From positions 1-42,175 of IMG/VR virus record IMGVR_UViG_3300030107_004407: a DNA stretch of 42,175 nucleotides; one strand, written 5' to 3'. The DNA comes from a virus. Positions 2,824 to 17,506 of the stretch are shown in pieces. The notes beneath the pieces were generated by a model, which was not told the DNA's origin, searched no databases, and saw only the letters and a program-made list of their open reading frames with translations. The translations under genes were made by a program, and so were the position numbers. How positions within the stretch are numbered: position 1 is the stretch's first letter; every line of letters begins with the position of its first letter.

Positions 2824-4917
2824 ATGATTGCCTTTCACGGTCACAGTATCGTGGGGTCATGGAGCAAGAGAGACAAGTGGAGATACCGTCCGAGACGTAG
2901 GTCTGAGCTATGCCCCAAGCATTGGTGGCAGGCGCCAGCTACACCGGAAAATATCTCCAGCTTTATCCAAGACCCTGAAGCCCCCATCGACCAGCTACCG
3001 GCAGCGGTGGAGAGGCTGGAAGAACTACTTGCACAGCCTCAGATGGTGCTCGACTCCCTACATTACAAGGCCATAGCTGAGAGGGACACCAAGATACACT
3101 GCAAGGTGGAGACTAAGCCAACCCTCGACCAGATGCTGATGGGGACCAAAGCAGACAGGCCACTCGACTACTTGATTCCATACTCAGGTAGGTACAGACC
3201 ATTCAGCCAACAGCTTATTGGCGCTGACTTCATACTCAAGATGAAGCGATGCGGAATCTTCTACGACATGCGAGTAGGTAAGACACTGACAGCTACGCTT
3301 GCATTGAAGTATGCCTTGGTGAATGGGCTTATTGACCATGGCTTTATCATATGTCCACGCATACTTATCGAGGGTGTATGGCAGGCAGAACTGGAAGCCA
3401 ATGGCATTGACGCCTATGTGTGTGACCGTGGGCCGTTAAGGGATGACAAGGTGTTCTCTCATCTGGATGCCGAAGCCTACATCATGTCATACGAGACACT
3501 GGTGGGCAGGCTATCGAGCATCAACTGCCACTTCGATACTTCCAGAATCATGGTCATCTGTGATGAGACAAGCAGAGTAAAGAACCCAACAGCTAAGAGA
3601 ACACGGGCAGTGCAGGGGCTGACATACCATGCGCCATACGTAGCCATGCTGACAGGCACACCGATGGAGCAAGGCCCTCACGATGTATGGTCACAGATGT
3701 TTACCATCGATAGGGGTGCAAGACTTGGTGTTACATTCGATAGCTTTGCAAACAAGTATACATTCCAAGAGGGGCACAGGTTCACGGTCAACCCGGCGAA
3801 AAGATTAGACCTTGAGCTTGCCATCCAGACAGCAGCCATCAGGTATGTACGGTCTGAGGCTGACCAGTTCGCAGGTAAGGACAAGAACTTTAGGTGGATT
3901 CAACTAAGTCCAAGTGCAGAGCAGGCGCACGCTACCGAGTTGGCCATTGATGGTGTAGTCCAGACATTGAACGGGGAGTATCACGAGATGATTCCCCACA
4001 TCCTGACCACCTATGGATTCCTGCGGGAGATATGCTGCGGGTACAACAAGGTACGCCTTGAGGAGCTGGGTCCATACTCACGGTTTAGATTTGAGTATGA
4101 CGCCAAGACACTATGGTTAGAGACATGGCTTGAGAGCAACCCAGGTGAGCCGGCAGTTGTATTCTGTGAGTTCGATGAACATGAGCAGGTAATCTCCGAC
4201 ATGCTGGAGAGGAACAGGGTTCCCCATGTATGGCTCAAGCGTGACAGCCAGCGGATAGGGCCAGCGGAATGTGTCCGTAAGTTTCAAGAGGGCGAGGTTC
4301 ACGTCATCATCATGAAGACAACGCAAGCGGAGGGCATCACACTTAATAGAATACCTGCGGTAGAGAAGGGCATCGGAGCATACCCGTCCATCATATACAT
4401 GGCCCCAACGTGGAGCCTGGGCAGGTTCATGCAATCCCAGGACAGGTGTGTAGGTACTGACTCAGAGGGTCGCAACCTAATGACACCCATCTACTGCCTC
4501 ATCACCAAGGGCAGCATCGAAGAGAAGATAATGAAAGCACTCCGTCAGAAGAAGGGCGTGCAAGAGACTCTGCTTAGGGATGCGAGGCGAGTAGGGTTCA
4601 CATCATTCCTTGATGAGTTGCGCCTCGACCCGAAGGATGGAGTGGGGGATGGTACGTTTGATGCACAAGAGATGCACTCGCGGAAAGTCCTGGGTATAAG
4701 CCCAGAACTCAAGGCTACATGGCGTAGGATTCTTAAAGTTTGCCCTACCGTAGACACTGAAAAGTGTTACAATAATGATAGCCCTGAGCATCAGAGGCTA
4801 CGTGCAGCACAATACTTGATGAACAAATATGACGAACAAGGGGTATTACTTGTACCCCATATTGAAAGCAAACCAGAGTACGCAACCGTTGAAGCAACAG
4901 ACTGGGAAGAATCATGA
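2824..4917 (+). CDS. SNF2-family superfamily 2 helicase/translocase
   Basis: A 697-residue ATP-dependent DNA translocase. Visible motifs in order: Q-rich entry (FSQQ, 127-130); Walker A DMRVGKT with VGKT at 151-154; the DEAH-box position DETSRVKN (247-254), matching the DExH...KN pattern of SNF2 proteins; motif III TGTP (277-280); and in the second RecA lobe QAEG (501-504) and QSQDR (537-541) for motifs V and VI. Phage SNF2 proteins are thought to remodel DNA or clear proteins during replication or recombination. GGAG lies 6 bases before the ATG. Its last four bases overlap the start of a Fe-S nuclease, implying a helicase-nuclease pair. Confidence 0.93.
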   Translation: MIAFHGHSIVGSWSKRDKWRYRPRRRSELCPKHWWQAPATPENISSFIQDPEAPIDQLPAAVERLEELLAQPQMVLDSLHYKAIAERDTKIHCKVETKPTLDQMLMGTKADRPLDYLIPYSGRYRPFSQQLIGADFILKMKRCGIFYDMRVGKTLTATLALKYALVNGLIDHGFIICPRILIEGVWQAELEANGIDAYVCDRGPLRDDKVFSHLDAEAYIMSYETLVGRLSSINCHFDTSRIMVICDETSRVKNPTAKRTRAVQGLTYHAPYVAMLTGTPMEQGPHDVWSQMFTIDRGARLGVTFDSFANKYTFQEGHRFTVNPAKRLDLELAIQTAAIRYVRSEADQFAGKDKNFRWIQLSPSAEQAHATELAIDGVVQTLNGEYHEMIPHILTTYGFLREICCGYNKVRLEELGPYSRFRFEYDAKTLWLETWLESNPGEPAVVFCEFDEHEQVISDMLERNRVPHVWLKRDSQRIGPAECVRKFQEGEVHVIIMKTTQAEGITLNRIPAVEKGIGAYPSIIYMAPTWSLGRFMQSQDRCVGTDSEGRNLMTPIYCLITKGSIEEKIMKALRQKKGVQETLLRDARRVGFTSFLDELRLDPKDGVGDGTFDAQEMHSRKVLGISPELKATWRRILKVCPTVDTEKCYNNDSPEHQRLRAAQYLMNKYDEQGVLLVPHIESKPEYATVEATDWEES

Positions 4918-5873
4918 GCCTACTATCACTACTCTCTGAGACAGCATGGAAGTCAAAGTTCCACAAGCTTGGAGAACTTAAGTTAAGACAGTCATCAATA
5001 AGACAGTTCAGGTATTGTCCTAAAAAGTTTTACTATGACTATTTTCTTGAGGCTGAAGAGGAAAAAGAAAAGTACGCTAAACCGGCATACTTTACTCTCG
5101 GTTCCTACTTCCATGCTTATGTCGAAGCACATTCTCTCGGTCACGATGTCGAACCTGAGAGGCTTCTTAAAGAATGCTGGGACAAAGACGGAAACGTAGA
5201 CGCAGACTTCAGTGAATGTCTATTCAGGCTGGACAATAAAGAAGTCTTCTATGGCATGAGCCTCAACGACCTGGCGATTAAGGTGTGCAGATACCTGGAC
5301 CAGTACGGCTTCGCACCTGAGAGGGTGGAGATACTGGAGTCCATGGAGATGGGCAAGGTAAGCATCACAGGTACACCCGACCTCGTTAGCGTGAACAAGT
5401 TGACAGGTGAGAGGTTCGTCCTCGACCTTAAGACATCAGGGCTATGGCGTAAGTTCTTCGGGACCGGCAGCCTGAGTGCAGTCAAGTACGATGAGGCACA
5501 GATTACTTTCGCCACCCAGCTACAGCACTATGACTGGATGCTCTATAGGCTGCATGGCATTAAGGCAGATAGGTACGGGTATATCTGCCCGGTGAACTTC
5601 ATACCCAACACCAAGACAGGCAAGCTTAGGGGCGAACCAATCAGTGTCGCACCAGCAGCAACCATTGAACAGTTGGTGGAGATATATGAGTACGACCTAT
5701 ACGGTACAGCGAAAGAGATAGCGAAGTGCAGAGACACTAATGAGTGGCCAAGAAACAGGCCGGAAACCTACGGAAAACTTGATTGCGTGTCATGTAGACA
5801 CAGGGACGTATGCCTTGGACAACGAGAAATCAGAACAGAAATACCAGACTTTATCAACTCAGACCTTGGCTGA
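4914..5873 (+). CDS. PD-(D/E)XK nuclease with Cas4/AddB-type Fe-S cysteines
   Basis: A 319-residue nuclease of the RecB/Cas4 type. Catalytic elements: His67 in GSYFHAYVE, Asp156 in GTPD, and DLK (171-173) in the LDLKTSG core, then a Q-x-Y-like helix (QLQHYDW). Four cysteines, C35 in YCPKKF and C291/C294/C300 in the pattern C-x2-C-x5-C, match the split 4Fe-4S site known in AddB and Cas4 nucleases. It likely trims DNA ends to single strands for recombination or processes replication ends. The start overlaps the SNF2 gene (ATGA), so the two are probably made together. Confidence 0.9.
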   Translation: MSLLSLLSETAWKSKFHKLGELKLRQSSIRQFRYCPKKFYYDYFLEAEEEKEKYAKPAYFTLGSYFHAYVEAHSLGHDVEPERLLKECWDKDGNVDADFSECLFRLDNKEVFYGMSLNDLAIKVCRYLDQYGFAPERVEILESMEMGKVSITGTPDLVSVNKLTGERFVLDLKTSGLWRKFFGTGSLSAVKYDEAQITFATQLQHYDWMLYRLHGIKADRYGYICPVNFIPNTKTGKLRGEPISVAPAATIEQLVEIYEYDLYGTAKEIAKCRDTNEWPRNRPETYGKLDCVSCRHRDVCLGQREIRTEIPDFINSDLG

Positions 5874-6006
5874 ACAACTTAACGAGGACTACACAACACT
5901 ATGCATTGACGAAGCGAAACATTTTATACAAAAACATCCTGGCAAAACCGCCAAGGAAATAGCACTTATAGAAAACCTATTGGAGACCATTCAAAATGAG
6001 CAATGA
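5740..6006 (+). CDS. small hypothetical protein, start uncertain
   Basis: The ORF reads 88 codons from ATG 5740, but the first 134 bases lie inside the nuclease gene in another frame, where the nuclease encodes its three C-terminal cysteines. The part beyond the nuclease stop (44 codons) is helical and acidic (QLNEDYTTLCIDEAKHF) and links directly to the SSB start. No good ribosome binding site precedes 5740; a TTG near 5815 has AGGGA about 8 bases upstream and would give a shorter protein. No family recognised. The C-terminal half is probably real because it fills a 122-base gap in a gap-free operon. Confidence 0.45.
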   Translation: MSGQETGRKPTENLIACHVDTGTYALDNEKSEQKYQTLSTQTLAEQLNEDYTTLCIDEAKHFIQKHPGKTAKEIALIENLLETIQNEQ

Positions 6007-6847
6007 ACTAATGAACATGCCCGACTTCCTTTCCCCCGCCGCTGTGCAGTCAGAGCTGGACGCGCAAGCAGAGCTTGTAAATCCTGCGGCACTCTTTCCA
6101 AAGATGCGACTGAACAAAGACGTAAGGGGATTCATGATAACTATGGGTGAGCAGAACCTTGGTACACCAAGCGAGGTTCAGTTCCTTATCCTTGGTTTAG
6201 AAAACCTATACGGTAGCCGTGCGCTATTCCCGCCCAGTGGTATGGGTGGAACCACGCCAGTGTGTGCAACACGACTACTCAACCCATCAAAGAAGCCATG
6301 GATTGGCAAGTGGAATAACGACAGTGGATTCCCCAACCCTGTAGAGGGTGAGCACGTTTGCGGCAAGTGCCCCTGGTCACAGTTTGGCAGCGACCCCAAG
6401 TGGGACGACACAAAGAAGGGCAAGGGCCCAGCATGCAAGGAGCGTCGAGTAATCTACGGCATCAAGGTAGAGGAGAGCGAGCGGCGCGGGATGTTCAAGG
6501 TGGTAGACGACACAGTCATCCAGTTTGTTCTGCCTGCTACATCCATCAGGACAACCAAGTCTATGGTGGCCAAGGCTACGGCAGCCAAGATTCCATTGAG
6601 TGCTGCATGCTTCCTCTTGTCAGCCAAGATGCACACCAGGGGTTCAATCAAGTGGTGTACCCTTGAGGCTGAACTCATTGGAGTTCTTGGAGACAAGGCC
6701 AGCTACGCAAGAGTTCAAGAGCTACGAAAGAAAGTAAGCAACATTGTGGGTGGCAGTGAGGAGTTGGATACCACGCCATACTCTGAGACCAGCGCGACAT
6801 CGAACGACATCAACTCAAGCGTTGAAGACGATGTCATCCCATTCTGA
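5996..6847 (+). CDS. single-stranded DNA binding protein
   Basis: A 283-residue protein ending in SVEDDVIPF. The acidic tail with a terminal -IPF is the hallmark of bacterial SSB proteins, where it binds host replication and repair enzymes. Cysteines C90, C122, C125 and C147 could form a zinc site inside the DNA-binding body, as in some phage SSBs. A flexible Ser/Thr/Asn-rich linker (residues about 255-275) separates body and tail. GGAG lies 9 bases upstream. It sits between the Fe-S nuclease and the primase-helicase, as expected for a replication SSB. The body does not look like the E. coli OB-fold, so the call relies on the tail, context and zinc site. Confidence 0.75.
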   Translation: MSNELMNMPDFLSPAAVQSELDAQAELVNPAALFPKMRLNKDVRGFMITMGEQNLGTPSEVQFLILGLENLYGSRALFPPSGMGGTTPVCATRLLNPSKKPWIGKWNNDSGFPNPVEGEHVCGKCPWSQFGSDPKWDDTKKGKGPACKERRVIYGIKVEESERRGMFKVVDDTVIQFVLPATSIRTTKSMVAKATAAKIPLSAACFLLSAKMHTRGSIKWCTLEAELIGVLGDKASYARVQELRKKVSNIVGGSEELDTTPYSETSATSNDINSSVEDDVIPF

Positions 6848-7230: not shown

Positions 7231-7268
7231 AGCAAACCATTAACAACTAACCACTGAGGGGTAACGAA

Positions 7269-10200
7269 GTGGACTTGAAGCAGCAGGTACTTGCAGCAAT
7301 CGATGTAGAGAGAGAAGCAAGAGACATATTAGGAAACAAACACCGTAACGGGAACTACTCCTGTTACAACAAAGCAGCGCACAACAACAACGATGCCAAC
7401 CCATCCCTATCAATGAACGATAAGGGGTTGTACTTGTGTCATTCATGTGGAGTAAAGGGGGACATCTTCCAGCTCATCATGGACTCAAAGGGGATGAACA
7501 GGCAGACAGACTTCGGCAAGCTACTTAAACAACTGGCTGCAAAGTACGGACTCCAAGCAAACACCGTCAAGTTTGAGAAACAAAGAGAGGTAGTGCAAGT
7601 CATCAAGGGGTTCAAGCTTCTCGATGATGACAATAAAAAGAAGTGGCTGCTGTCACGTAGAGCAATGGGCAATGAAGCATTGCGTGTACTCAACGACAAC
7701 TACGGCATCACCAAAGACACAGCACTGAGGTTCGGGCTGGGCTTTGAGGGGCGACGGCTATGGATTCCGATACCGGCAAAGGGGTTCCAACACAAGGCAT
7801 TTCAGACTGACCTTGTAAACATTCGCAAGCATGACATCCTACGTAAGTGCTGCCAATGGATTGACGATGAGGGCAACAAGTACAGCAGTCAAGCCAAGCA
7901 TACCAGACCATACTGGGGTGAGAGGGGCGGCAAAACAATAGGCATACGCAACCACAACGTAGCCTACGTGTACCCAATGGAGAAGCTGACAACCAACCTT
8001 GAGGTATGGCTCGTAGGTGGTGAGCTTAAGGCGCTGTTGCTCAACCAACTTGGTATACATGCTGTATGTTTTACAGCGGGTGAAGGCAGGTATCACAAGA
8101 AGCTGCTCAAGTTCTTTACCAATAAGATTGTCCGAGTAGTGATGGACATTGACGATGCTGGAGAGCGCGCAACATTCGGTGACGAGAAGAGAGATGGTCT
8201 TGCTCAAGTGCTTGCAGACAATGGGGCAAAGGAAGTGTACGGAGGCAGGCTACCAGGCATAGCTGGCATGCCAGCGAACGGTGATGTTACCGACTACCTA
8301 CGATTAAACGACTGGAACGTTGACTCACTTAAGGAGATTGAGTGGGTTAAGTTTGAGCCAAAGCCCACCTTTGAAGCGGGATATGGCGATGAGCAGACAC
8401 CAGACTATGAGGTTCCAGACTTCGACAAGGTAGAGTACAGCAAGTTCTCTGACCTGCTCGCGCCCAAGAATGCAGGCAAGGTCATCAAGATTCCATTCGT
8501 TGTAGCAGGCAGAGGAGAGACGCCGTACCTATTGCCATCGTGCGTGAGGGCTACATGTGAAGCTGGGCAGATGGATGCAAGAAGCATCTGCGCCATATGT
8601 CCTATGTCTCGGAACAACTTCGACATGAAGGCTACACTCAACGAAGAAGAGCGCATCGACTTGGTAGGTAAATCGCCAGCCCAGGTGCGGTCATCAGTAG
8701 GCAAGAAGCTACGGCTACCGAAGTGCCAGTACCCAGAGATTGATGTTGAGACAGACAGCGTTGAGAAGCTCATCGTCATACCTACCCTTGACAGCAAGAA
8801 TGCAGGCGACCAGTTCAACTATAGACAGCACGCCATCTATGCGTTGGGTGATGATTACCTAACAGAGAACGTAGCCTACGAGGGTGTTGGTCGTGTACTA
8901 CCTGAGCCGAAGAACAGCCAGTACACGTGGGCGATGTCTAAGCAGAAGTCTCTCGACAATGACATCTTTAACTACATACACAAAGAGAATGAGTCGAACC
9001 ACCTGACAGAACTGTTTGGTAATGGGACCATAGAAGAAAAGATAAACAATCTTATCGGTTCGTTGCGCGATAACAAGCTACATAAGTACGGTATTGACAG
9101 GCTTATACTATACGAACTGCTTGCATTTTTCATGCCGTTTGAGTTCAGTCTTGGAATGTATAAGAACTACAAGGTGTGCCCAGAGGTGTGCATCTTAGGT
9201 GAGCCAAGGTCAGGCAAGAGCAGCACGGCTAAGGATTTGCTTACGCTGTACGGGGCAGGCCGATACGTTGACGCGCCCACTGTTACCACCATCGGACTCA
9301 TCGGAGGTAACGCTAACTTTGGTAAGACAAACATCTTTACTTGGGGTGCAATCCCCATGTGTCATAGAGCCATCTGCATTATCGATGAGTGTAACAAGCT
9401 GAACATCGAAGCCATCGAGACACTGACAAACCTCCGAAGTAGTGGGGTGGCAGAGAGAACAACGGTGTCTGGCGTCAGGAAGATTAGGTCGAACGTCAGG
9501 TTCCTATGGTTGTGCAACCCAAGGGGTGGGCGCTCACTTCAGCACTACGGTTCACCAGTACGAGCAGCACAGGATGTGTTCGGTTCACCCCAGGACCTGG
9601 CAAGGCTGGACTTGCTTCACGTACAGAAGGCGGCACGATCTGCGCGAGAGGTCAACCAGTTCCACAAGGCAGAGCACGAAGACTGGTACACCAGCGACAT
9701 CGCACGCTACCACCTACAGTGGGCATGGGCGCTACAAGAACACGACGTTGTATTTGAAGACCCCATCTACATTATGGATAAAGCCATCGACTTGGTCGAG
9801 AGGTATCGCTCTGACCTGCTACCCATGGCTGAAACAAAGTTTAAGATTGCCCGCATTGCTGCTGGACTATCCGCCCTTACCTACTCAATCGATAGGCATA
9901 ACAGATGTTACGTAACCAACGATGCCGTTGATATGGCATGGAGTCTGCTTGACTCATACAAGGATTACAACATTCAAGAAGTAAAGGAAGCAGGGGAAAG
10001 GATACCCAACGAACTACACTCAGTGCTCGCCATGCTACCAGCTAAAGAGTTGACCAGGCTCAAGGCGTTCATGATTCAGGACATGATGACGATGAGCGAG
10101 ATGAAGGAACTGTTCGGGCAGTCATGGACCGTTCAGTTTATACAGGTATCATTCTATGAGCTTGAACTTGTAAGACGTAGACGTAACTACTTTATGTGGG

Positions 10201-10280
10201 ACGAGACGCTTAGGTCATACGTTCAGAAGTTTCTAACAGAAGCAAAGGGTAGACCCGCTTGGGCTCCACCGGGATATTAA
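7269..10280 (+). CDS. primase-helicase: CHC2/TOPRIM primase fused to MCM-like AAA+ helicase
   Basis: A 1003-residue protein starting with GTG at 7269 (GAGGGG 8 bases upstream). Residues 30-65 are a CHC2 zinc finger (C32, H38, C57, C60). Residues 245-345 are a TOPRIM domain with E252 and D293/D295 (MDIDDAG). A middle region with C425, C430, C441 and C444 may be a zinc/OB DNA-binding part. The C-terminal AAA+ module has Walker A GEPRSGKSS (644-652), Walker B IIDECNK (704-710), sensor 1 LWLCNP (746-751) and DLARLDLLHV near 776-785, matching the MCM arginine finger SRFDLIFV. A lid-like helix follows (MAETKFKIARIAAGL). It should both unwind DNA and make primers. Confidence 0.88.
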   Translation: MDLKQQVLAAIDVEREARDILGNKHRNGNYSCYNKAAHNNNDANPSLSMNDKGLYLCHSCGVKGDIFQLIMDSKGMNRQTDFGKLLKQLAAKYGLQANTVKFEKQREVVQVIKGFKLLDDDNKKKWLLSRRAMGNEALRVLNDNYGITKDTALRFGLGFEGRRLWIPIPAKGFQHKAFQTDLVNIRKHDILRKCCQWIDDEGNKYSSQAKHTRPYWGERGGKTIGIRNHNVAYVYPMEKLTTNLEVWLVGGELKALLLNQLGIHAVCFTAGEGRYHKKLLKFFTNKIVRVVMDIDDAGERATFGDEKRDGLAQVLADNGAKEVYGGRLPGIAGMPANGDVTDYLRLNDWNVDSLKEIEWVKFEPKPTFEAGYGDEQTPDYEVPDFDKVEYSKFSDLLAPKNAGKVIKIPFVVAGRGETPYLLPSCVRATCEAGQMDARSICAICPMSRNNFDMKATLNEEERIDLVGKSPAQVRSSVGKKLRLPKCQYPEIDVETDSVEKLIVIPTLDSKNAGDQFNYRQHAIYALGDDYLTENVAYEGVGRVLPEPKNSQYTWAMSKQKSLDNDIFNYIHKENESNHLTELFGNGTIEEKINNLIGSLRDNKLHKYGIDRLILYELLAFFMPFEFSLGMYKNYKVCPEVCILGEPRSGKSSTAKDLLTLYGAGRYVDAPTVTTIGLIGGNANFGKTNIFTWGAIPMCHRAICIIDECNKLNIEAIETLTNLRSSGVAERTTVSGVRKIRSNVRFLWLCNPRGGRSLQHYGSPVRAAQDVFGSPQDLARLDLLHVQKAARSAREVNQFHKAEHEDWYTSDIARYHLQWAWALQEHDVVFEDPIYIMDKAIDLVERYRSDLLPMAETKFKIARIAAGLSALTYSIDRHNRCYVTNDAVDMAWSLLDSYKDYNIQEVKEAGERIPNELHSVLAMLPAKELTRLKAFMIQDMMTMSEMKELFGQSWTVQFIQVSFYELELVRRRRNYFMWDETLRSYVQKFLTEAKGRPAWAPPGY

Positions 10281-10622: not shown

Positions 10623-10812
10623 TGATAGGATACGAATCAGAAAGGGTGTATCAGGCAATAGCTTGGTCATCACCAGGCATGACGGCAAGGGAGGTTGTAC
10701 CTTGTTTATGCCCGTGTCTGAAGATAGGGCAGTTGAGTTTGTCAATCAAAACCTACGAATCGAACTCAGCCCTGACGAGAGGCAACTGATATGCGCGAGA
10801 ATAAACTCGTAG
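10615..10812 (+). CDS. small hypothetical protein, 65 aa
   Basis: ATG 10615 preceded by AGGGGTGAGG, overlapping the previous stop by 8 bases. The sequence alternates charged and hydrophobic residues (RIRIRKGVSGNSLVITRHD) and ends in a helix (SPDERQLICARINS), consistent with a small beta-alpha domain. No family recognised. It overlaps the VRR-NUC nuclease gene by 22 bases, so the two are coupled. Confidence 0.55.
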   Translation: MDNDRIRIRKGVSGNSLVITRHDGKGGCTLFMPVSEDRAVEFVNQNLRIELSPDERQLICARINS

Positions 10813-11213
10813 CACTTGTTCAAGCCAGCCTTGAGCGGCAGTTCAAAGATGCCTGCTACCTCAACAAGAACCACGGCAACCAGTTCCAATCAAGAGGAAG
10901 ACCAGACATCGAGGGCTGCATATTCGGTAGACACTTTGGCTTTGAGTTGAAGACAGGGTCACGGTTTACACCAGCGCAGATTGCACACCTAAAGAAGATA
11001 AGCAGAGCGGGAGGAGTAGGCGGGGGAATCGTCTACGCAAAAGGAGACTACTACTATTTAACCTCAGCACAGGCTGGATCGTTCAGCCTAAGAAACCTTA
11101 ACCAATACATACAGATACCTTTGAACAGGTATTTAGATTTTACTTTCTTGTACAAATACTTGAACGTCTTTTACCTTTACTACCATGGAGAACATAATGA
11201 ACTACTTTCTTAA
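10791..11213 (+). CDS. VRR-NUC domain nuclease, 140 aa
   Basis: A compact PD-(D/E)XK nuclease of the VRR-NUC type. GRPDIEG (36-42) carries the catalytic Asp39, ELK (52-54) the Glu/Lys pair, and PAQIAHLKK (61-69) the conserved Gln. Gly-rich VGGGIVYA follows, as in the family core. VRR-NUC enzymes are structure-specific nucleases related to Holliday junction resolvases, so this protein likely resolves branched replication or packaging DNA. The C-terminal 40 residues are rich in Tyr, Phe and Leu and extend past the usual domain. GAGAGG lies about 9 bases upstream. Confidence 0.88.
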   Translation: MRENKLVALVQASLERQFKDACYLNKNHGNQFQSRGRPDIEGCIFGRHFGFELKTGSRFTPAQIAHLKKISRAGGVGGGIVYAKGDYYYLTSAQAGSFSLRNLNQYIQIPLNRYLDFTFLYKYLNVFYLYYHGEHNELLS

Positions 11214-12024
11214 ACTGAACACTATTGAGATACTCAACGACAAGCGTGTACTTGTAACAGTGGGCGCCAACTCTTTTGTTGTTGACGAGTCGATGGTTGA
11301 AAGAGCACCAGACATTACTACAGGCCCTCAGATATGGGGCAAGTTGGACGACATTAACCGCACCACAATGTCTATTAAGAGATTGCTTGCTAACTCTGAG
11401 CAGCCAAGCATAAACATCGAGCCAGCACCTGAGCCCACACCTGAGCCCACGCCTGAGCCGATGCCTGAGCCGATGCCATTACCTCCACCGGAAGTGGCCC
11501 CACCTGAGCATGACCTTGAGGCACTGGGATTGAAGTCATCATCCGATGCTCCGCCTCCACCGTTCAAGGTCAATGACGACGCATCACAGCCCATGTCAGT
11601 ATCTCAAATAGGTAAACAGCTTGGAGACCTGTACGAGAAAGAGCCCAAGCAACGGCGAAGAATCATTAATAAGATTGCAGGGATGGTCCGACTCGACATG
11701 CTTGCCATCAAAGACTATCTGCCTGGTGATCTTCGTAGGGCTGTGGTCTCGCAGATTATGCAAAGAGACTCACTCAATACACCCATCGTACCACCAGACA
11801 TTGCAGCGTTCCTCGATGACCGACCACTACATGAGACGCTTGGCTCTCGTCAGTGGGACCCAGGAAACGATAGAGCTACCGATACAGTAGGACCCAACTG
11901 GTCAGAATCTAAGAGAGTGCTCGACAAGATTGCGAGTGAGGTTGACGAATCAGAGTTCGACCACATGTACCCAACTACTGAGTTTGCTGCCGTCGAAGTT
12001 AACCGAAAGTTTAGCGGTAGCTGA
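11197..12024 (+). CDS. hypothetical protein with proline-rich linker, 275 aa
   Basis: Start at ATG 11197, where GGAG is 7 bases upstream; an ATG at 11185 lacks a site. Residues about 1-65 form a small beta-rich domain, residues about 75-105 a PEP-repeat linker encoded by four 12-base tandem repeats (11428-11475), and the C-terminal 150 residues a helical, charged domain (KQLGDLYEKEPKQRRRI). No family recognised. The two-domain, flexible-linker design suggests a bridging protein. It is the last + strand gene and overlaps the end of the opposite block by 14 bases. Confidence 0.7.
   Translation: MNYFLKLNTIEILNDKRVLVTVGANSFVVDESMVERAPDITTGPQIWGKLDDINRTTMSIKRLLANSEQPSINIEPAPEPTPEPTPEPMPEPMPLPPPEVAPPEHDLEALGLKSSSDAPPPPFKVNDDASQPMSVSQIGKQLGDLYEKEPKQRRRIINKIAGMVRLDMLAIKDYLPGDLRRAVVSQIMQRDSLNTPIVPPDIAAFLDDRPLHETLGSRQWDPGNDRATDTVGPNWSESKRVLDKIASEVDESEFDHMYPTTEFAAVEVNRKFSGS
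11428..11475 (+). repeat. four 12-bp tandem repeats coding PEPT/PEPM
   Basis: Four near-identical 12-base units (CCTGAGCCCACA-like) with period 12 encode successive Pro-Glu-Pro-Thr or Met units. The DNA repeat makes the linker prone to length change. Confidence 0.8.
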
Positions 12025-15000
12025 TAAGCGGTGTATCTTTTTCCTTACGCCTGGTAGAGAAGGTCTTCTGCATAGTATTGATTTCACCAATGCGCTTAAG
12101 GAACATAGCCATACGGTCCAGCTTCGCCTTGTCATAGTACAGGCGTTGCTCTGGGCCGTACTTGTATGCCTTCTCACCAAGCACCTGACGAGAGAGGGCG
12201 AACCAGTTGTACTCTTGCTTCTCCGAGTTGTACACCTTCTTGGCTACGTTGAAGAACCTTGCGGTGGGAACCTCGCCAAGCAACCAGGCAGCACGAGGGT
12301 CAACCCTTGCTCTGCCTGTTGTCGGGTCAATCTTGTAACCAACAGCCTGCTTCATCCATGGCGGTGCGTCTTGGAATGCGCGACCAGACTCAAAGGATGA
12401 ACGCTCGTACAGCTTGCTCTTAATGTGTGTACCACGGAAGAAGTCTGTGTCAGTCAGGTTCTCAAGTGCAGTGGTTACGCCAAACGGACCACGACCAAGC
12501 AGCTTCTCTGGAGACCCACCGAACATCTCCTTCCAAAGCATCATGGAGTCTTCTTGGACAAGCCCGTATCCAGACTTAACTTCTATCTCTTTCTTCCCAG
12601 TCATAGGGTCAACACGGATAGTCTTGATTCTCTTAAGTCTTCCCGATAGCCAGTCGGGGTAATCCGCAGGGTCTACGTCCTGGTATTTGTTTTGGTTATT
12701 AACAAACTTAAACTGCTGTGCTACTCGACCTGGGTTGTTGACAAGAGAGTCAGCAGAAGTCATCAATGCATGCTTGGTCCATGTATAGAATGGCATGAAG
12801 CGTTTGATTGCACGACGCTCAACCAGTGAAAGGTTTGAATAGTCGAACAGGTAATCCTTAACTGCCCTGCCTGCTTGACCAAGAGAGCCTGTGCGATGCG
12901 CCTCAATGGTGAACAACATTAGGCGAGACGGAATCTCTGACGCCAGCTCACCAGCACGGAATATATCACGAGCAAAGAAAGCATTCGCTGGCTTGATGGC
13001 TTCTTTCCATCCCTCGTTCGCCTTGACTCCAGCACGCTCTGCCATCGCAAGAACCTTGACACCACTCTGCTTGAACAACTCCTCGCTGACGTGTGTAGTA
13101 AATACGCCTCGGCGAGCAGCCTCTTGTGCCATCTCTTCAACGGTAAACTCTAAACCATTAGACAGTTTAATCTTATGCTTGGCCAGCTTCTCAATGTCTC
13201 GGTATCCGTCACCTAAAGCGTAGCGTGTAGCACCAGCGCCCACACCAGCACCAACGGCAGCACCCTTGAGTCTGCCTTCAATGCCATCCTCTGGGCCTGC
13301 GGCAAGAGCACCAACGACACCACCTGCAACAGACTGGGCAGCAACACCACCCTCGGCAACGTTTTTAAGTCCAGCCTTAAGTGCTCCACCTGCAAGGCCA
13401 CCAGCCACACCACCAGCAGCAGCCCCACCCAAGGCACCAGTAAGCGCCCGGCCACTCAACAGTGAACCAATAACTCCAGAATCTGTAGCCTGGTGTTCTT
13501 GCTGTGCCCCGATGATTGCGCCACTACCTGCACCCATCACGCCCATGAAAGCAGACTGTGACTTAGCGAGGTTGTCGATGTCAACGACCTCTTTATGTAG
13601 AACGTAAGTCATAACCTTCAGGAAGTTCTGCTGATATGTGGGGTGCAACATTGCAGCACCACTTTGAAGGTACGTAAGGGCAACGTTCGTTACGCTGTTA
13701 CGCATGTAGAACTCAGGCCATACTGCCATGAGCGGAGCCTTGAACATATTTTGAACAGCGTCATACTTACGCATGAGCCAGTTCATCTCATCGCTGTGGC
13801 CATACAGGGGGTCAGAAACCTCTTTGATTATCTTGGCAATGTTCTCAGGCATGTAGTACGAAGATGCCTCAACCGAGAGTGCGCGTTCCCCAACCTCTTG
13901 GATAGTAGGGCCAAAAGTACCAGCCTGCCGCGAAACGTCGAAGCCTGGACCGATCTCTTCAGTACCAGCGCGAACGATGTCATCCGCTGTTCGTGCATCC
14001 CCTGGCGTGAAAGTCCTCGGTGCTTGCGGCAGAGCCTCGACTCCACTTGTAAGGTCCGGCCCCGTACCTTCGACAACCTCTTCAACCTCTTCGGTGACCT
14101 TTCGTGTCTTCTTGACCTTGGGTGCAGTTGTCTCTGCTTTCTTGAGTCCTTTAGCTGCCTCATCTGCGTTCACCTTTGCTTCGGCTACAGCAGCCTTAAG
14201 CTTGTCAATATCCTTGGCGCCTACAGCACGAGCGGCTTCCAACTCAGCCTTGGCTGCACGAACAGCGGCATCATCAGCGCCCTCGGTCATTGCCTTTTCG
14301 GCATCATCAAGAGCCTTCTGGGCTTTCTTTATTCGTGGGGTATCCTTGCCTGCTTCGTCCAGCATCTTCTGCGCTGAAGACAAAGCCCCATCAGCAGCAG
14401 CCTTAGCCTTGGTTGCAGCCTTCATCACCTTCGGGTCGGGCACCTCTTCAATGATTTCCTTCTCAACCTTTCTGATAATCTTGTCGGGTACAAGCCCAGC
14501 TTTCTCAGCAGCAGTCTTGAGTTTTGCCTCTGCCTTCTTCAGGGCCTTATCGTTCGCCTTGGATGGGAACTGAAGCTGCTTGCTGTGCGCCTTAGCCAGC
14601 CTCTCACGAGCGCCAGCCAACCCTACTTCAGCCCGCCTCTTGACCAGCTTCTTGCGAATGGGGTCAGCCTTCTTTTCAAGCCTTTTAATGTTAGAGACAA
14701 TGTCTTTATATTCTTTAGATTTTGTAGATCCGCCAGCCCTATCAATCGCATTTCTTTTTTGGATAAGCAGGTCCATCTCTTTGCCTATCGGGCCAAGCTT
14801 TGCATTTAAATCGGTTGCAATATCTTGCGATTCTTTTTTCGATGCGCCAATCCTATCAAGCACCTTGGAAAGATTTGTTTTAACCCGAGACGGTATGGTC
14901 CCTTTCGGAACTCCAAACTCAACTTCCACCATTCGCTGGTTAGTAAACTTCGCGTACCTTTCCCTCGCGAGAGGGTCGCCATGGTGCAGCGATAAGAAGT

Positions 15001-17506
15001 TCTCAAGCCTGTCCGCCTCGGCTGAAGTTAGATCATCAAGAGTCTTCTTGTCGAACATGACATCAAGAAGCTGTCGAGTCTCATCAGACTTAAACCCAAA
15101 CCCTCGACCAGGCTTACCGGCAACCCTTCCAAGCATACCCTTGATGCTTTCCATGGTATGCGGAGAAGGCTTGACTGTATCGGTAAGGATACCCATCGCT
15201 TGGCGGTACTGAATGGCACGAGTCACAAGGTCTTCAGGGATTTGAGCAGCCTTCTGTAGACCTTTGACGGGTCTCTTTAGTTGCGCCATCAGTTTTTTGT
15301 ATTCAACGCCAGGCTTTGCCGGATTGCGGAGCCCACCCTTAAGTTTACCCTCAAGCTCAGGCATCAGCCCAAGCAGTGGACCCACGCCCTCACTTCTAAG
15401 CTGGTCATCAAACTGTCCGATGGCTTTCTTAATCTTAGAGAACGGCATCTGGTCAAATGGGTCTCCGGTCATTACCCCGCGAATGGCCTTGATGGCATCA
15501 ACCTGAAGCCTCTCTTGATTGTAGGTCTTCCCAAACTTACTCGTGATTGTGCCCGTGTAGTTACGAAGATGGTCAGTCATCCAGTCCGCAGTGTCTCCCC
15601 TGGCCTCGCGATTAGTTGTTAGCCACTCAAGGATTTTGAGGTTGTGCTCATTAGCGCCCTCTCTGAATCCCCACTTAGCTGTGTCAATATCACCATGGGC
15701 GAACCACTGATTAACTTCAGAGATGTCGAATGGTGTGCCACGAGTTTCAACCATACGCTTACGGATAGCAGCGGGAACACTCTGGCCAGCCATAGCAACA
15801 AGCGTTGCAGGAATACCGTGCGTTGCCTGCATCTCAAGGTAAAACTTCTGACGGTTCACCATCTCAATACTCATAAGCTTACGGCGCATGAGAATCTTAT
15901 AGATGTTGTCCTCAACCACATCGTCAGGCATGACGCCCTTAAGGTCCGAGATGCTGGCAATGAAGCGATGTTGACTGTATGGGTTACCCTTTGTTGACCA
16001 GTTCCTATCGAGCGCTTGCCTTTGGAACATGTCAATCTTTGCGGTGTCACCCTTAAACATATGCGTGACATAATCCACATATGTGTTGTTCAATATGCCG
16101 TACTTCTGCTCTTCCTCTGCAATGTCATCGAATATCTTTCGAGCCTTTGCCGCCGCCTCAACCAAGTGCGGAGCGTAATCGTTGTCAAGCATATCAGCAG
16201 CGTTACGCGCACTCTTGTCGAACCCCCTCTCAATGATTGTGCTTACCGTCCCAGCTTCATCATCAGTTAAACCTTTGAACTCATCGGCGATAGCCCTGGT
16301 CCACTGCCTTCTTTGACTGTTGATGGTATCCGTCATCACACCATGAAGCAGCCGGGTATTGTCGTCAAGGTTCCAAGTCTTATTGAAGACAGACATGGTC
16401 TTGGTAAAGTAATCGCCGTACCATTTATCTTTAGGTATAGACTGAAGCTTACGCCTAAGTGCTGCGCCAGGCACACCAAGCTCCTTTAGGTGTACAGGGC
16501 TACTCTCTACGAAAAGCTGCTTAATAAGAGGAACGCTATCGTCACCCAACCCAACAAGGCCCCTTTGGCCTGGACCAAGAACATCGCCAATAGCGCCACG
16601 AGCTTTAGTTGCCATGCCACCCTGGAGAAACTTGCGCTCATTGGCCCAAGCCCTCTTCGATAGGCGATCATAGTTTTCAATCATGTAGTCGGTCGCGCGC
16701 TCATTTAGCAACTGCCGCTGACGTGTTGCCGCAAGGGTAGACCCTTCAGCAACTTCTTCAGCAATCTCTCTTTCAATCTTTGGCATCAACTCACGGACAG
16801 CCTCCCTGTGTACCTTGCTGCCCCATCGCGAGAGGGTCATTTCAACGCCGTCCTTTCCGGCCCTCTCTGCCGCCTCCCTACCAACTATTGTAGGCATGGA
16901 AGAGGCACTGCCCTTAAGGGTCACCTTCGCGCCAGCGCCAGTGCCAAGAGTCAGGTAGGTGCTGGGGCTGAGTGCAACGTCAAGAGCGAACACACCAATC
17001 CCACTTGGGGTCAAGCCGTACTCAGTACCAAATACGTCGCCAAACGTTGTGCGCTCCCTGTAAGCCTTGCGGTATTCCTCTGTGCTGAAAGTGGGGAGCC
17101 ACCTTACCGGGGCCCACCAAGGCGCAACTCCACCCTCGTAGTCCTTGCCAGCAGATTTGATTGCCTCGTGTCGTGCCTTTGCTAAAGATGCGGAGGCGTA
17201 GTTGTCCAAAGACAGTACATCAACAAAGGTCTGTAGCCCGTCTTCTGTCGCCTCGATGCCAGTTAAAGACTCAACTGCGCGAGCAAATATCCCAGTGTCA
17301 TTCTGCTCGTATGCTTGCGATGCCTCATCAGCAGATATTAAACCACGGGCATGGGCACTGTGAAGCATAGCTCTATGCTCAACGTAGCGCTTGTCTGTTG
17401 CGTCATCACCCGTTCGCCTAAACTCAGGCAGATCAAGAGCATTAAACATGTTCTTGTCTGAGTTTACCTGCCGAGCCCTAAGCTCATCAATCTGCTTCCA
17501 GTACAT
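12011..17506 (-). CDS. giant internal virion / DNA-ejection protein, 1831 aa
   Basis: GGGGGGAGAATA precedes the ATG at 17506. No enzyme motif is evident. Residues about 950-1135 are a Lys/Ala/Glu coiled-coil region. Residues about 1315-1430 are Gly/Ala-rich with many GxxxG steps (GGAAAGGVAGGLAGG), able to insert into membranes. Residues about 1555-1580 carry FDYSNLSLVERR and RFMPFYTWTKHAL, like the motif of large polyvalent phage proteins (LPD38-like, from memory). Size, final position in the late block and two preceding coiled-coil or glycine-rich proteins match internal virion proteins of podoviruses, which leave the capsid and form a DNA conduit. The stop overlaps the + strand block by 14 bases. 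Confidence 0.8.
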   Translation of the reverse strand: MYWKQIDELRARQVNSDKNMFNALDLPEFRRTGDDATDKRYVEHRAMLHSAHARGLISADEASQAYEQNDTGIFARAVESLTGIEATEDGLQTFVDVLSLDNYASASLAKARHEAIKSAGKDYEGGVAPWWAPVRWLPTFSTEEYRKAYRERTTFGDVFGTEYGLTPSGIGVFALDVALSPSTYLTLGTGAGAKVTLKGSASSMPTIVGREAAERAGKDGVEMTLSRWGSKVHREAVRELMPKIEREIAEEVAEGSTLAATRQRQLLNERATDYMIENYDRLSKRAWANERKFLQGGMATKARGAIGDVLGPGQRGLVGLGDDSVPLIKQLFVESSPVHLKELGVPGAALRRKLQSIPKDKWYGDYFTKTMSVFNKTWNLDDNTRLLHGVMTDTINSQRRQWTRAIADEFKGLTDDEAGTVSTIIERGFDKSARNAADMLDNDYAPHLVEAAAKARKIFDDIAEEEQKYGILNNTYVDYVTHMFKGDTAKIDMFQRQALDRNWSTKGNPYSQHRFIASISDLKGVMPDDVVEDNIYKILMRRKLMSIEMVNRQKFYLEMQATHGIPATLVAMAGQSVPAAIRKRMVETRGTPFDISEVNQWFAHGDIDTAKWGFREGANEHNLKILEWLTTNREARGDTADWMTDHLRNYTGTITSKFGKTYNQERLQVDAIKAIRGVMTGDPFDQMPFSKIKKAIGQFDDQLRSEGVGPLLGLMPELEGKLKGGLRNPAKPGVEYKKLMAQLKRPVKGLQKAAQIPEDLVTRAIQYRQAMGILTDTVKPSPHTMESIKGMLGRVAGKPGRGFGFKSDETRQLLDVMFDKKTLDDLTSAEADRLENFLSLHHGDPLARERYAKFTNQRMVEVEFGVPKGTIPSRVKTNLSKVLDRIGASKKESQDIATDLNAKLGPIGKEMDLLIQKRNAIDRAGGSTKSKEYKDIVSNIKRLEKKADPIRKKLVKRRAEVGLAGARERLAKAHSKQLQFPSKANDKALKKAEAKLKTAAEKAGLVPDKIIRKVEKEIIEEVPDPKVMKAATKAKAAADGALSSAQKMLDEAGKDTPRIKKAQKALDDAEKAMTEGADDAAVRAAKAELEAARAVGAKDIDKLKAAVAEAKVNADEAAKGLKKAETTAPKVKKTRKVTEEVEEVVEGTGPDLTSGVEALPQAPRTFTPGDARTADDIVRAGTEEIGPGFDVSRQAGTFGPTIQEVGERALSVEASSYYMPENIAKIIKEVSDPLYGHSDEMNWLMRKYDAVQNMFKAPLMAVWPEFYMRNSVTNVALTYLQSGAAMLHPTYQQNFLKVMTYVLHKEVVDIDNLAKSQSAFMGVMGAGSGAIIGAQQEHQATDSGVIGSLLSGRALTGALGGAAAGGVAGGLAGGALKAGLKNVAEGGVAAQSVAGGVVGALAAGPEDGIEGRLKGAAVGAGVGAGATRYALGDGYRDIEKLAKHKIKLSNGLEFTVEEMAQEAARRGVFTTHVSEELFKQSGVKVLAMAERAGVKANEGWKEAIKPANAFFARDIFRAGELASEIPSRLMLFTIEAHRTGSLGQAGRAVKDYLFDYSNLSLVERRAIKRFMPFYTWTKHALMTSADSLVNNPGRVAQQFKFVNNQNKYQDVDPADYPDWLSGRLKRIKTIRVDPMTGKKEIEVKSGYGLVQEDSMMLWKEMFGGSPEKLLGRGPFGVTTALENLTDTDFFRGTHIKSKLYERSSFESGRAFQDAPPWMKQAVGYKIDPTTGRARVDPRAAWLLGEVPTARFFNVAKKVYNSEKQEYNWFALSRQVLGEKAYKYGPEQRLYYDKAKLDRMAMFLKRIGEINTMQKTFSTRRKEKDTPLISYR

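Follow-up and report, generated by a model that had tools for sequence, protein, structure and literature searches.

Introduction

Can a bacterial-type primase and an MCM motor, the ring helicase otherwise found in archaea and eukaryotes, belong to one and the same viral protein? The question is raised by a long open reading frame in the stretch of DNA analysed here (hereafter the window; 42,175 nucleotides, i.e., bases 1-42175 of a 45,238-base IMG/VR virus record), in which a first-pass annotation, made from the letters alone, had seen a DnaG-type primase followed by an MCM-like AAA+ helicase. Fusions of MCM motors to another primase, of the archaeo-eukaryotic type (AEP), are already known from phages (PMC4538821; PMC5862659), and bacterial MCMs are reported as highly divergent and AEP-linked (PMC5862659). 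In this work we ask whether both halves of the frame are what they seemed, how widely the arrangement occurs, and what such a protein might do.

Results

The gene and its integrity

7256..7261, + strand: Shine-Dalgarno-like GAGGGG, 7 bases 5′ of the GTG, read off the sequence
7269..10280, + strand: primase-MCM fusion gene, GTG start, 1003 amino acids

A syntenic copy of the gene, with gene order kept, is found in the related record L012, where the protein is 73% identical. Between the two copies dN is 0.16-0.34 in each domain, against a dS that is 1.5 or saturated, which indicates purifying selection; its action on all domains, together with the open frame and the ribosome-binding site, shows this to be a real, whole and selected protein. 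All the motifs and residues listed in the first-pass annotation are present in the 1003-residue frame, and its CHC2, TOPRIM and AAA+ residues are conserved beyond chance in about 70 aligned DnaG-type homologues, to which the conservation counts below refer (with 25 AEP-type homologues where given). Residues 1-362 comprise a zinc domain of CHC2 type and the DnaG/TOPRIM core, residues 384-565 an OB fold that bears four conserved cysteines, and residues 585-905 the AAA+ motor.

The N-terminal primase

7269..7574, + strand: CHC2-type zinc-binding domain, residues 1-102 (C32, H38, C57, C60), by Pfam and fold match
7620..8354, + strand: DnaG-type RNA polymerase core with TOPRIM fold, residues 118-362 (E252, D293, D295, D339), by fold, TIGR01391 and conserved acids

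The zinc domain matches Pfam Zn_ribbon_DnaG (7e-6; 26.1 bits, cut-off 24.9), and its fold resembles that of 1d0q, the zinc domain of the B. stearothermophilus primase (Z 10.1 over 93 residues, rmsd 2.6). Its ligands are conserved (C32 in 65 of 70 homologues, H38 in 58, C57 in 67 and C60 in 59), the first pair being spaced C-x5-H in the window and L012, as opposed to C-x2-H in most relatives. When residues 1-375 were modelled on their own with AlphaFold2 (pLDDT 86.9), the polymerase core superposed on Aquifex DnaG 2au3 (Z 18.4, 204 residues, rmsd 3.0); T7 gp4 primase also matches this model, with Z of about 15-16. Its acids are invariant or nearly so (E252 and D293 70/70, D295 69/70). When a profile of 53 homologues was run against all PDB sequences, the N-terminal half found DnaG-type primases only among the best 60 rows (2au3, 5e-28), and the NCBIfam model TIGR01391 (dnaG) matches residues 41-163 at 3.6e-11, scoring 42.6 bits against an equivalog cut-off of 283.6. 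Profile and fold thus bear out the earlier assignment: the N-terminal half carries a primase domain of DnaG type, without being a DnaG orthologue.

The C-terminal motor

8418..8963, + strand: MCM-type N-terminal OB-fold region, residues 384-565, from model strands 405-429 and 490-561; inside the MCM structural alignments from about residue 384
8556..8726, + strand: four-cysteine site in the OB fold (C430, C441, C444, C486), probable zinc site, by conservation
9021..9983, + strand: MCM-type AAA+ motor, residues 585-905, by Pfam MCM (23.5 bits), hhalign and Foldseek
9198..9221, + strand: Walker A GEPRSGKS (644-651); K650 70/70, invariant in 95 sequences
9303..9344, + strand: helix-2 insert β-hairpin (679-692), model strands 679-684 and 687-692; W692 64/70
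9372..9389, + strand: Walker B strand, ending in D706-E707, from model strand 702-706 and conservation
9447..9488, + strand: presensor-1 β-hairpin (727-740), model strands 727-732 and 735-740
9516..9518, + strand: sensor-1 N750; 69/70 DnaG-type, 25/25 AEP-type
9603..9605, + strand: arginine finger R779; 68/70 DnaG-type, 25/25 AEP-type
9852..9854, + strand: sensor-2-region R862; R 61/70 and K 7/70, R 25/25 AEP-type
9984..10277, + strand: C-terminal extension, possible winged helix, residues 906-1003; helices and a small hairpin (968-977) at moderate confidence, the least conserved domain

The same profile search against the PDB led the motor half to MCMs only among the best 60 rows (3f9v, 2.9e-15), and hhalign against six archaeal MCM sequences, from plasmids and one virus, gave a probability of 99.3 (E 3.6e-20, 379 columns). 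With a full-length AlphaFold2 model (pLDDT 83.7), the best 50 matches were all MCM both in Foldseek (top E 1.7e-22) and in VIA-align, where residues 385-903 of the model fit an archaeal MCM-DNA complex with Z 28.9 over 455 residues (rmsd 5.1); such lists of fifty would, by themselves, leave other families conceivable. The Pfam MCM match of the window protein is borderline (20.0 bits with hmmscan and 23.5 in the genome search, cut-off 23.3) and is alone no proof, since the same model also responds in E. coli and Bacillus. Profile against the PDB, hhalign, the modelled hairpins and structure search nevertheless agree, and the motor is of MCM type, as had been proposed. Motors of the DnaB, SF3/D5 and sigma54 families were weighed as alternatives and discarded, being absent from the Pfam matches and from the best 60 PDB profile rows.

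The helix-2 and presensor-1 inserts, which the first-pass annotation had named as what a model should be searched for, are both there as hairpins; the outcome that would have spoken against its reading, a best match to DnaB, SF3 or D5 and neither insert in the model, did not occur. Most homologues carry a lysine at the presensor-1 tip, where the window has T732 with the basic R737 and K738 nearby. In the Walker B strand D706 is kept in 59 of 70 homologues (E in 10) and E707 in 68, and the Walker A and B motifs, the sensor-1 asparagine and the arginine finger stand in MCM order. All this is retained at about 14% identity to archaeal and eukaryotic MCMs, and in trees the motor lies beside those of bacterial phages, on a long branch separate from the archaeal MCMs.

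A cysteine cluster at residues 425-444 had been read as a possible replacement of the MCM N-terminal zinc site. The cluster is real and belongs to a larger, nearly invariant set (C430 in 65, C441 in 66, C444 in 65 and C486 in 64 of the 70 DnaG-type homologues; C430, C444 and C486 in 25/25 of the AEP type). Given that the four cysteines lie in an OB fold which, in the model, superposes on the MCM N-terminal domain, they would most simply be that very zinc site rather than a substitute for it. The structural alignments begin near residue 100 of the archaeal SsoMCM, so that subdomain A appears to be missing, with the primase roughly in its place. In MCMs subdomain A is variable and not defining, and the C-terminal winged helix is variable too; in the window protein winged-helix-like elements are modelled at 936-977 (block pLDDT 58-79), and a few MCM alignments extend to residues 969-980.

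Distribution of the fusion

A tblastn search recovered 60 annotated phage records, 45 of them covering at least 80% of the protein, from phages of Microbacterium (Krampusvirus), Arthrobacter, Bacillus, Weizmannia and Paenibacillus and one environmental phage. Among viral contigs the window protein alone found no match; an alignment used as query recovered relatives at 80 loci, 62 of which have a DnaG-type N-terminus and nine an AEP primase, the other nine being left unclassified by domain profiles. A limited pattern search of 84,980 species genomes returned five relatives only, four of them in MAG contigs, for which reason the family looks mainly viral. An origin from an archaeal virus was also considered; the motor tree, which speaks for the motor alone, places it among bacterial phages.

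Two of the nine unclassified loci (L043, 7692-9854, and L053, 7746-9899) keep the motor, whereas zinc and TOPRIM domains are gone and a short remnant of the primase is left, a state comparable to that of Twinkle; priming is therefore not strictly tied to the motor. At the loci L066 and L075 the fusion appears split, possibly through an intron, a frameshift or an assembly error, with the motor in a separate frame of 376-433 amino acids, the match spanning the whole query.

The AEP-MCM sister group

In the AEP-type proteins (PHROG 18685; Bacillus phage vB_BboS-125), of which a further scan found 36 loci, the N-terminal primase is Pfam DNA_primase_S. An AEP domain is absent from the N-terminus of the window protein, where TOPRIM stands instead, and occurs in this sister group only. 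The AEP-type proteins match Pfam MCM clearly (3.4e-13), a similarity already remarked by the annotator of vB_BboS-125, and are homologous to the DnaG type over the whole motor module, i.e., OB/zinc region, AAA+ domain and C-terminus (E 4e-116, 573 columns). In both types the homology sets in at about residue 390-400, which suggests that the primases were exchanged as a block.

In the motor trees the AEP-type proteins cluster together as a single group (support 90-93) within the diversity of the DnaG type, with the root at the midpoint as well as on archaeal MCMs. The simplest reading of these sequences would be that AEP took the place of TOPRIM once; which way the swap went is no more than suggested, because the group has other neighbours in one tree than in the other and a long branch leads to the outgroup.

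Genomic setting

2824..4917, + strand: SNF2-type helicase gene, upstream, part of a conserved module (Pfam SNF2, 1.5e-15)
4914..5873, + strand: PD-(D/E)XK exonuclease gene, upstream, after SNF2 (Pfam PDDEXK_1, 5e-14); a RecB-like exonuclease has the same place in Krampus and Wollypog

DnaB_C gave no match in 41 related records. PolA occurs in 15 of these and the PolIII alpha subunit (DnaE) in 15 others, never both in one record, and PolB was found in none of the 17 records tested. The remaining 11 have neither PolA nor PolIII alpha; among them is the window's own record, in which no DNA polymerase is recognisable, so that this virus might use the host polymerase or one that escapes recognition, or the record might be incomplete. 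The SNF2 gene is present in 37 of the 41 records; of the 25 loci found with the window's copy, 24 have it upstream of the fusion and on its strand. Krampus and Wollypog both show the succession SNF2, exonuclease, RecA-like gene, primase-MCM.

Three further frames near the fusion deserve mention. Just upstream, 5996-6847 (+) encodes a cysteine-containing protein of 283 amino acids, 58% identical in L012, with weak matches to PHROGs of unknown function; directly downstream, 10791-11213 (+) could be an endonuclease (phrog_93, 7.9e-8) and is 66% identical in L012. A frame of 1831 amino acids at 12011-17506 (-) matches neither Pfam nor PHROG, and is possibly a large virion-associated protein; the L012 record has a frame of 2458 amino acids, with 33-48% identity in three stretches.

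Discussion

The results presented here make it very probable that the gene encodes a replicative primase-helicase of a phage, built as one polypeptide on an MCM hexamer, a reading drawn from sequence, structural model and analogy. It is based on the identity of the domains, the conserved catalytic residues, the selection acting on them, the fact that no DnaB was detected in the 41 related records and the co-occurrence with PolA or DnaE. Against it count the borderline Pfam score, the threonine in place of the presensor-1 tip lysine, the window record in which no DNA polymerase is recognisable, and the two relatives whose motor stands without zinc or TOPRIM domain. We infer the hexamer, the 3′-5′ polarity, the primer synthesis and the role in the replisome, ring and polarity being taken by analogy from the biochemistry of MCMs and of BcMCM, the AEP-MCM protein of a Bacillus cereus prophage.

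If such interpretation is correct, the zinc domain would select the template site and the TOPRIM core would polymerise the primer, whilst the AAA+ motor, with its own OB/zinc N-tier, would form a ring and translocate 3′-5′ on the leading-strand template, as MCMs and BcMCM do. The primase would sit on the N-tier face, roughly at the position of MCM subdomain A. Since this face goes first in 3′-5′ movement and is the one that the excluded lagging strand encounters, the strand in need of primers would have the fused primase at its side; the primase recruited to the front of CMG has a comparable position. The predicted ring possibly loads itself.

Like SaPI Rep and SCCmec Cch, the same motor could alternatively serve to initiate at the origin or to melt it, opening the DNA and laying the first primer before the host DnaB takes over. 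The MCM-like AAA+ helicases of staphylococcal islands have indeed been proposed as initiator helicases (PMC7581432), and a window record without polymerase implies that the host supplies some of the replisome; about three quarters of the related records, however, bring their own PolA or DnaE and in none was a DnaB detected, and a fused primase suits the repeated priming of a lagging strand better than one single initiation event. We therefore regard the initiator role as unlikely. Improbable, too, is a recombination or repair helicase with primase, similar to MCM8/9, which would be the partner of the SNF2, exonuclease and RecA-like genes and stay away from the main fork. The recurrence of that gene order in Krampus, Wollypog and others speaks in its favor, as does the near-constant company of SNF2 (37/41), but the same 41 records yielded no DnaB-type replicative helicase that could serve the fork in its stead, and recombination-dependent replication would still use the fusion protein there. 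That the protein is a primase-helicase of the T7 gp4/Twinkle or SF3/D5 type with a motor merely resembling MCM, as its domain order (that of T7 gp4) and the frequent association of D5 helicases with DnaG or AEP domains (PMC7581432) might suggest, is scarcely credible, as arginine finger, sensor-1 asparagine, helix-2 insert and presensor-1 hairpin are all there, no DnaB_C or SF3/D5 Pfam match appears at E<=1, structure and profile searches give MCM (best 50 and best 60 rows, respectively), and the T7 gp4 primase fragment 1nui matches the primase half only.

Returning to the replicative primase-helicase, a wider scenario can be put together, to which we would give an even chance. An old and separate phage lineage of MCM would act as sole replicative helicase, together with PolA or DnaE, and would swap its fused primase as a block, TOPRIM being the common state, AEP having come in at least once, and the primase having been lost in a few members. 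The primase on the N-tier, in place of subdomain A, would make of the protein a one-chain analogue of CMG plus primase, and BcMCM would be a derived offshoot.

The first-pass annotation had held that such a fusion would be an unusual replisome core. The fusion itself is established, but its uniqueness is not upheld: it belongs to a widespread phage family, and an AEP-MCM protein, BcMCM, was already known. In the openly searchable literature we found no account of an MCM motor joined to a DnaG-type primase, and an earlier mention elsewhere is possible; in public phage annotations the fusion is already present, unrecognised. Components of replication that are commonly credited to separate domains of life are joined here in one polypeptide, and this in phages of ordinary culturable bacteria, where the mechanism of MCM and the coupling of a primase to the face of a 3′-5′ helicase become testable in a one-gene bacterial system. 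A motor shared by two unrelated primases is, in addition, a clear example from nature of a primase being replaced whilst the helicase stays. The family, whose members pass at present as ‘DNA primase’ or ‘primase/helicase’ and have the PHROGs label ‘unknown function’ (phrog_18685), can moreover be given a specific name.

Among the closest known proteins are the primases of Krampusvirus (gp47; Microbacterium), Wollypog (gp50; Arthrobacter), BSP7 (Bacillus), Youna2 (Weizmannia) and API480 (Paenibacillus), which likewise have CHC2/TOPRIM domains and an MCM motor at about 20-27% identity to the window protein; the four MCM cysteines are kept in most of them, API480 lacking part of the set, and their labels (DNA primase, primase small subunit or primase/helicase) never mention MCM. 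By analogy, the nearest biochemistry is that of BcMCM, for which 3′-5′ helicase, primase and polymerase activities are reported (PMC4538821). The logic of the fusion is common to both proteins, but the primase is AEP there and DnaG/TOPRIM here; this comparison is one of architecture, and the B. cereus-like loci of our scan may not be BcMCM itself. SCCmec Cch and its like are also MCM-like AAA+ motors of bacterial mobile elements and, as described in PMC5862659 and PMC7581432, come without a fused DnaG-type primase. In T7 gp4 and Twinkle a DnaG-type primase stands N-terminal to a ring helicase, as in the window, and the primase folds match, whereas their motor is of the RecA-like, DnaB type and moves 5′-3′ and that of the window is an MCM-type AAA+. 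Archaeal MCM and eukaryotic MCM2-7, finally, have in common with the window protein the OB/zinc N-tier, the helix-2 insert, the presensor-1 hairpin and the sensor and finger residues, but where they carry an N-terminal A subdomain of their own, the phage protein appears to carry its primase.
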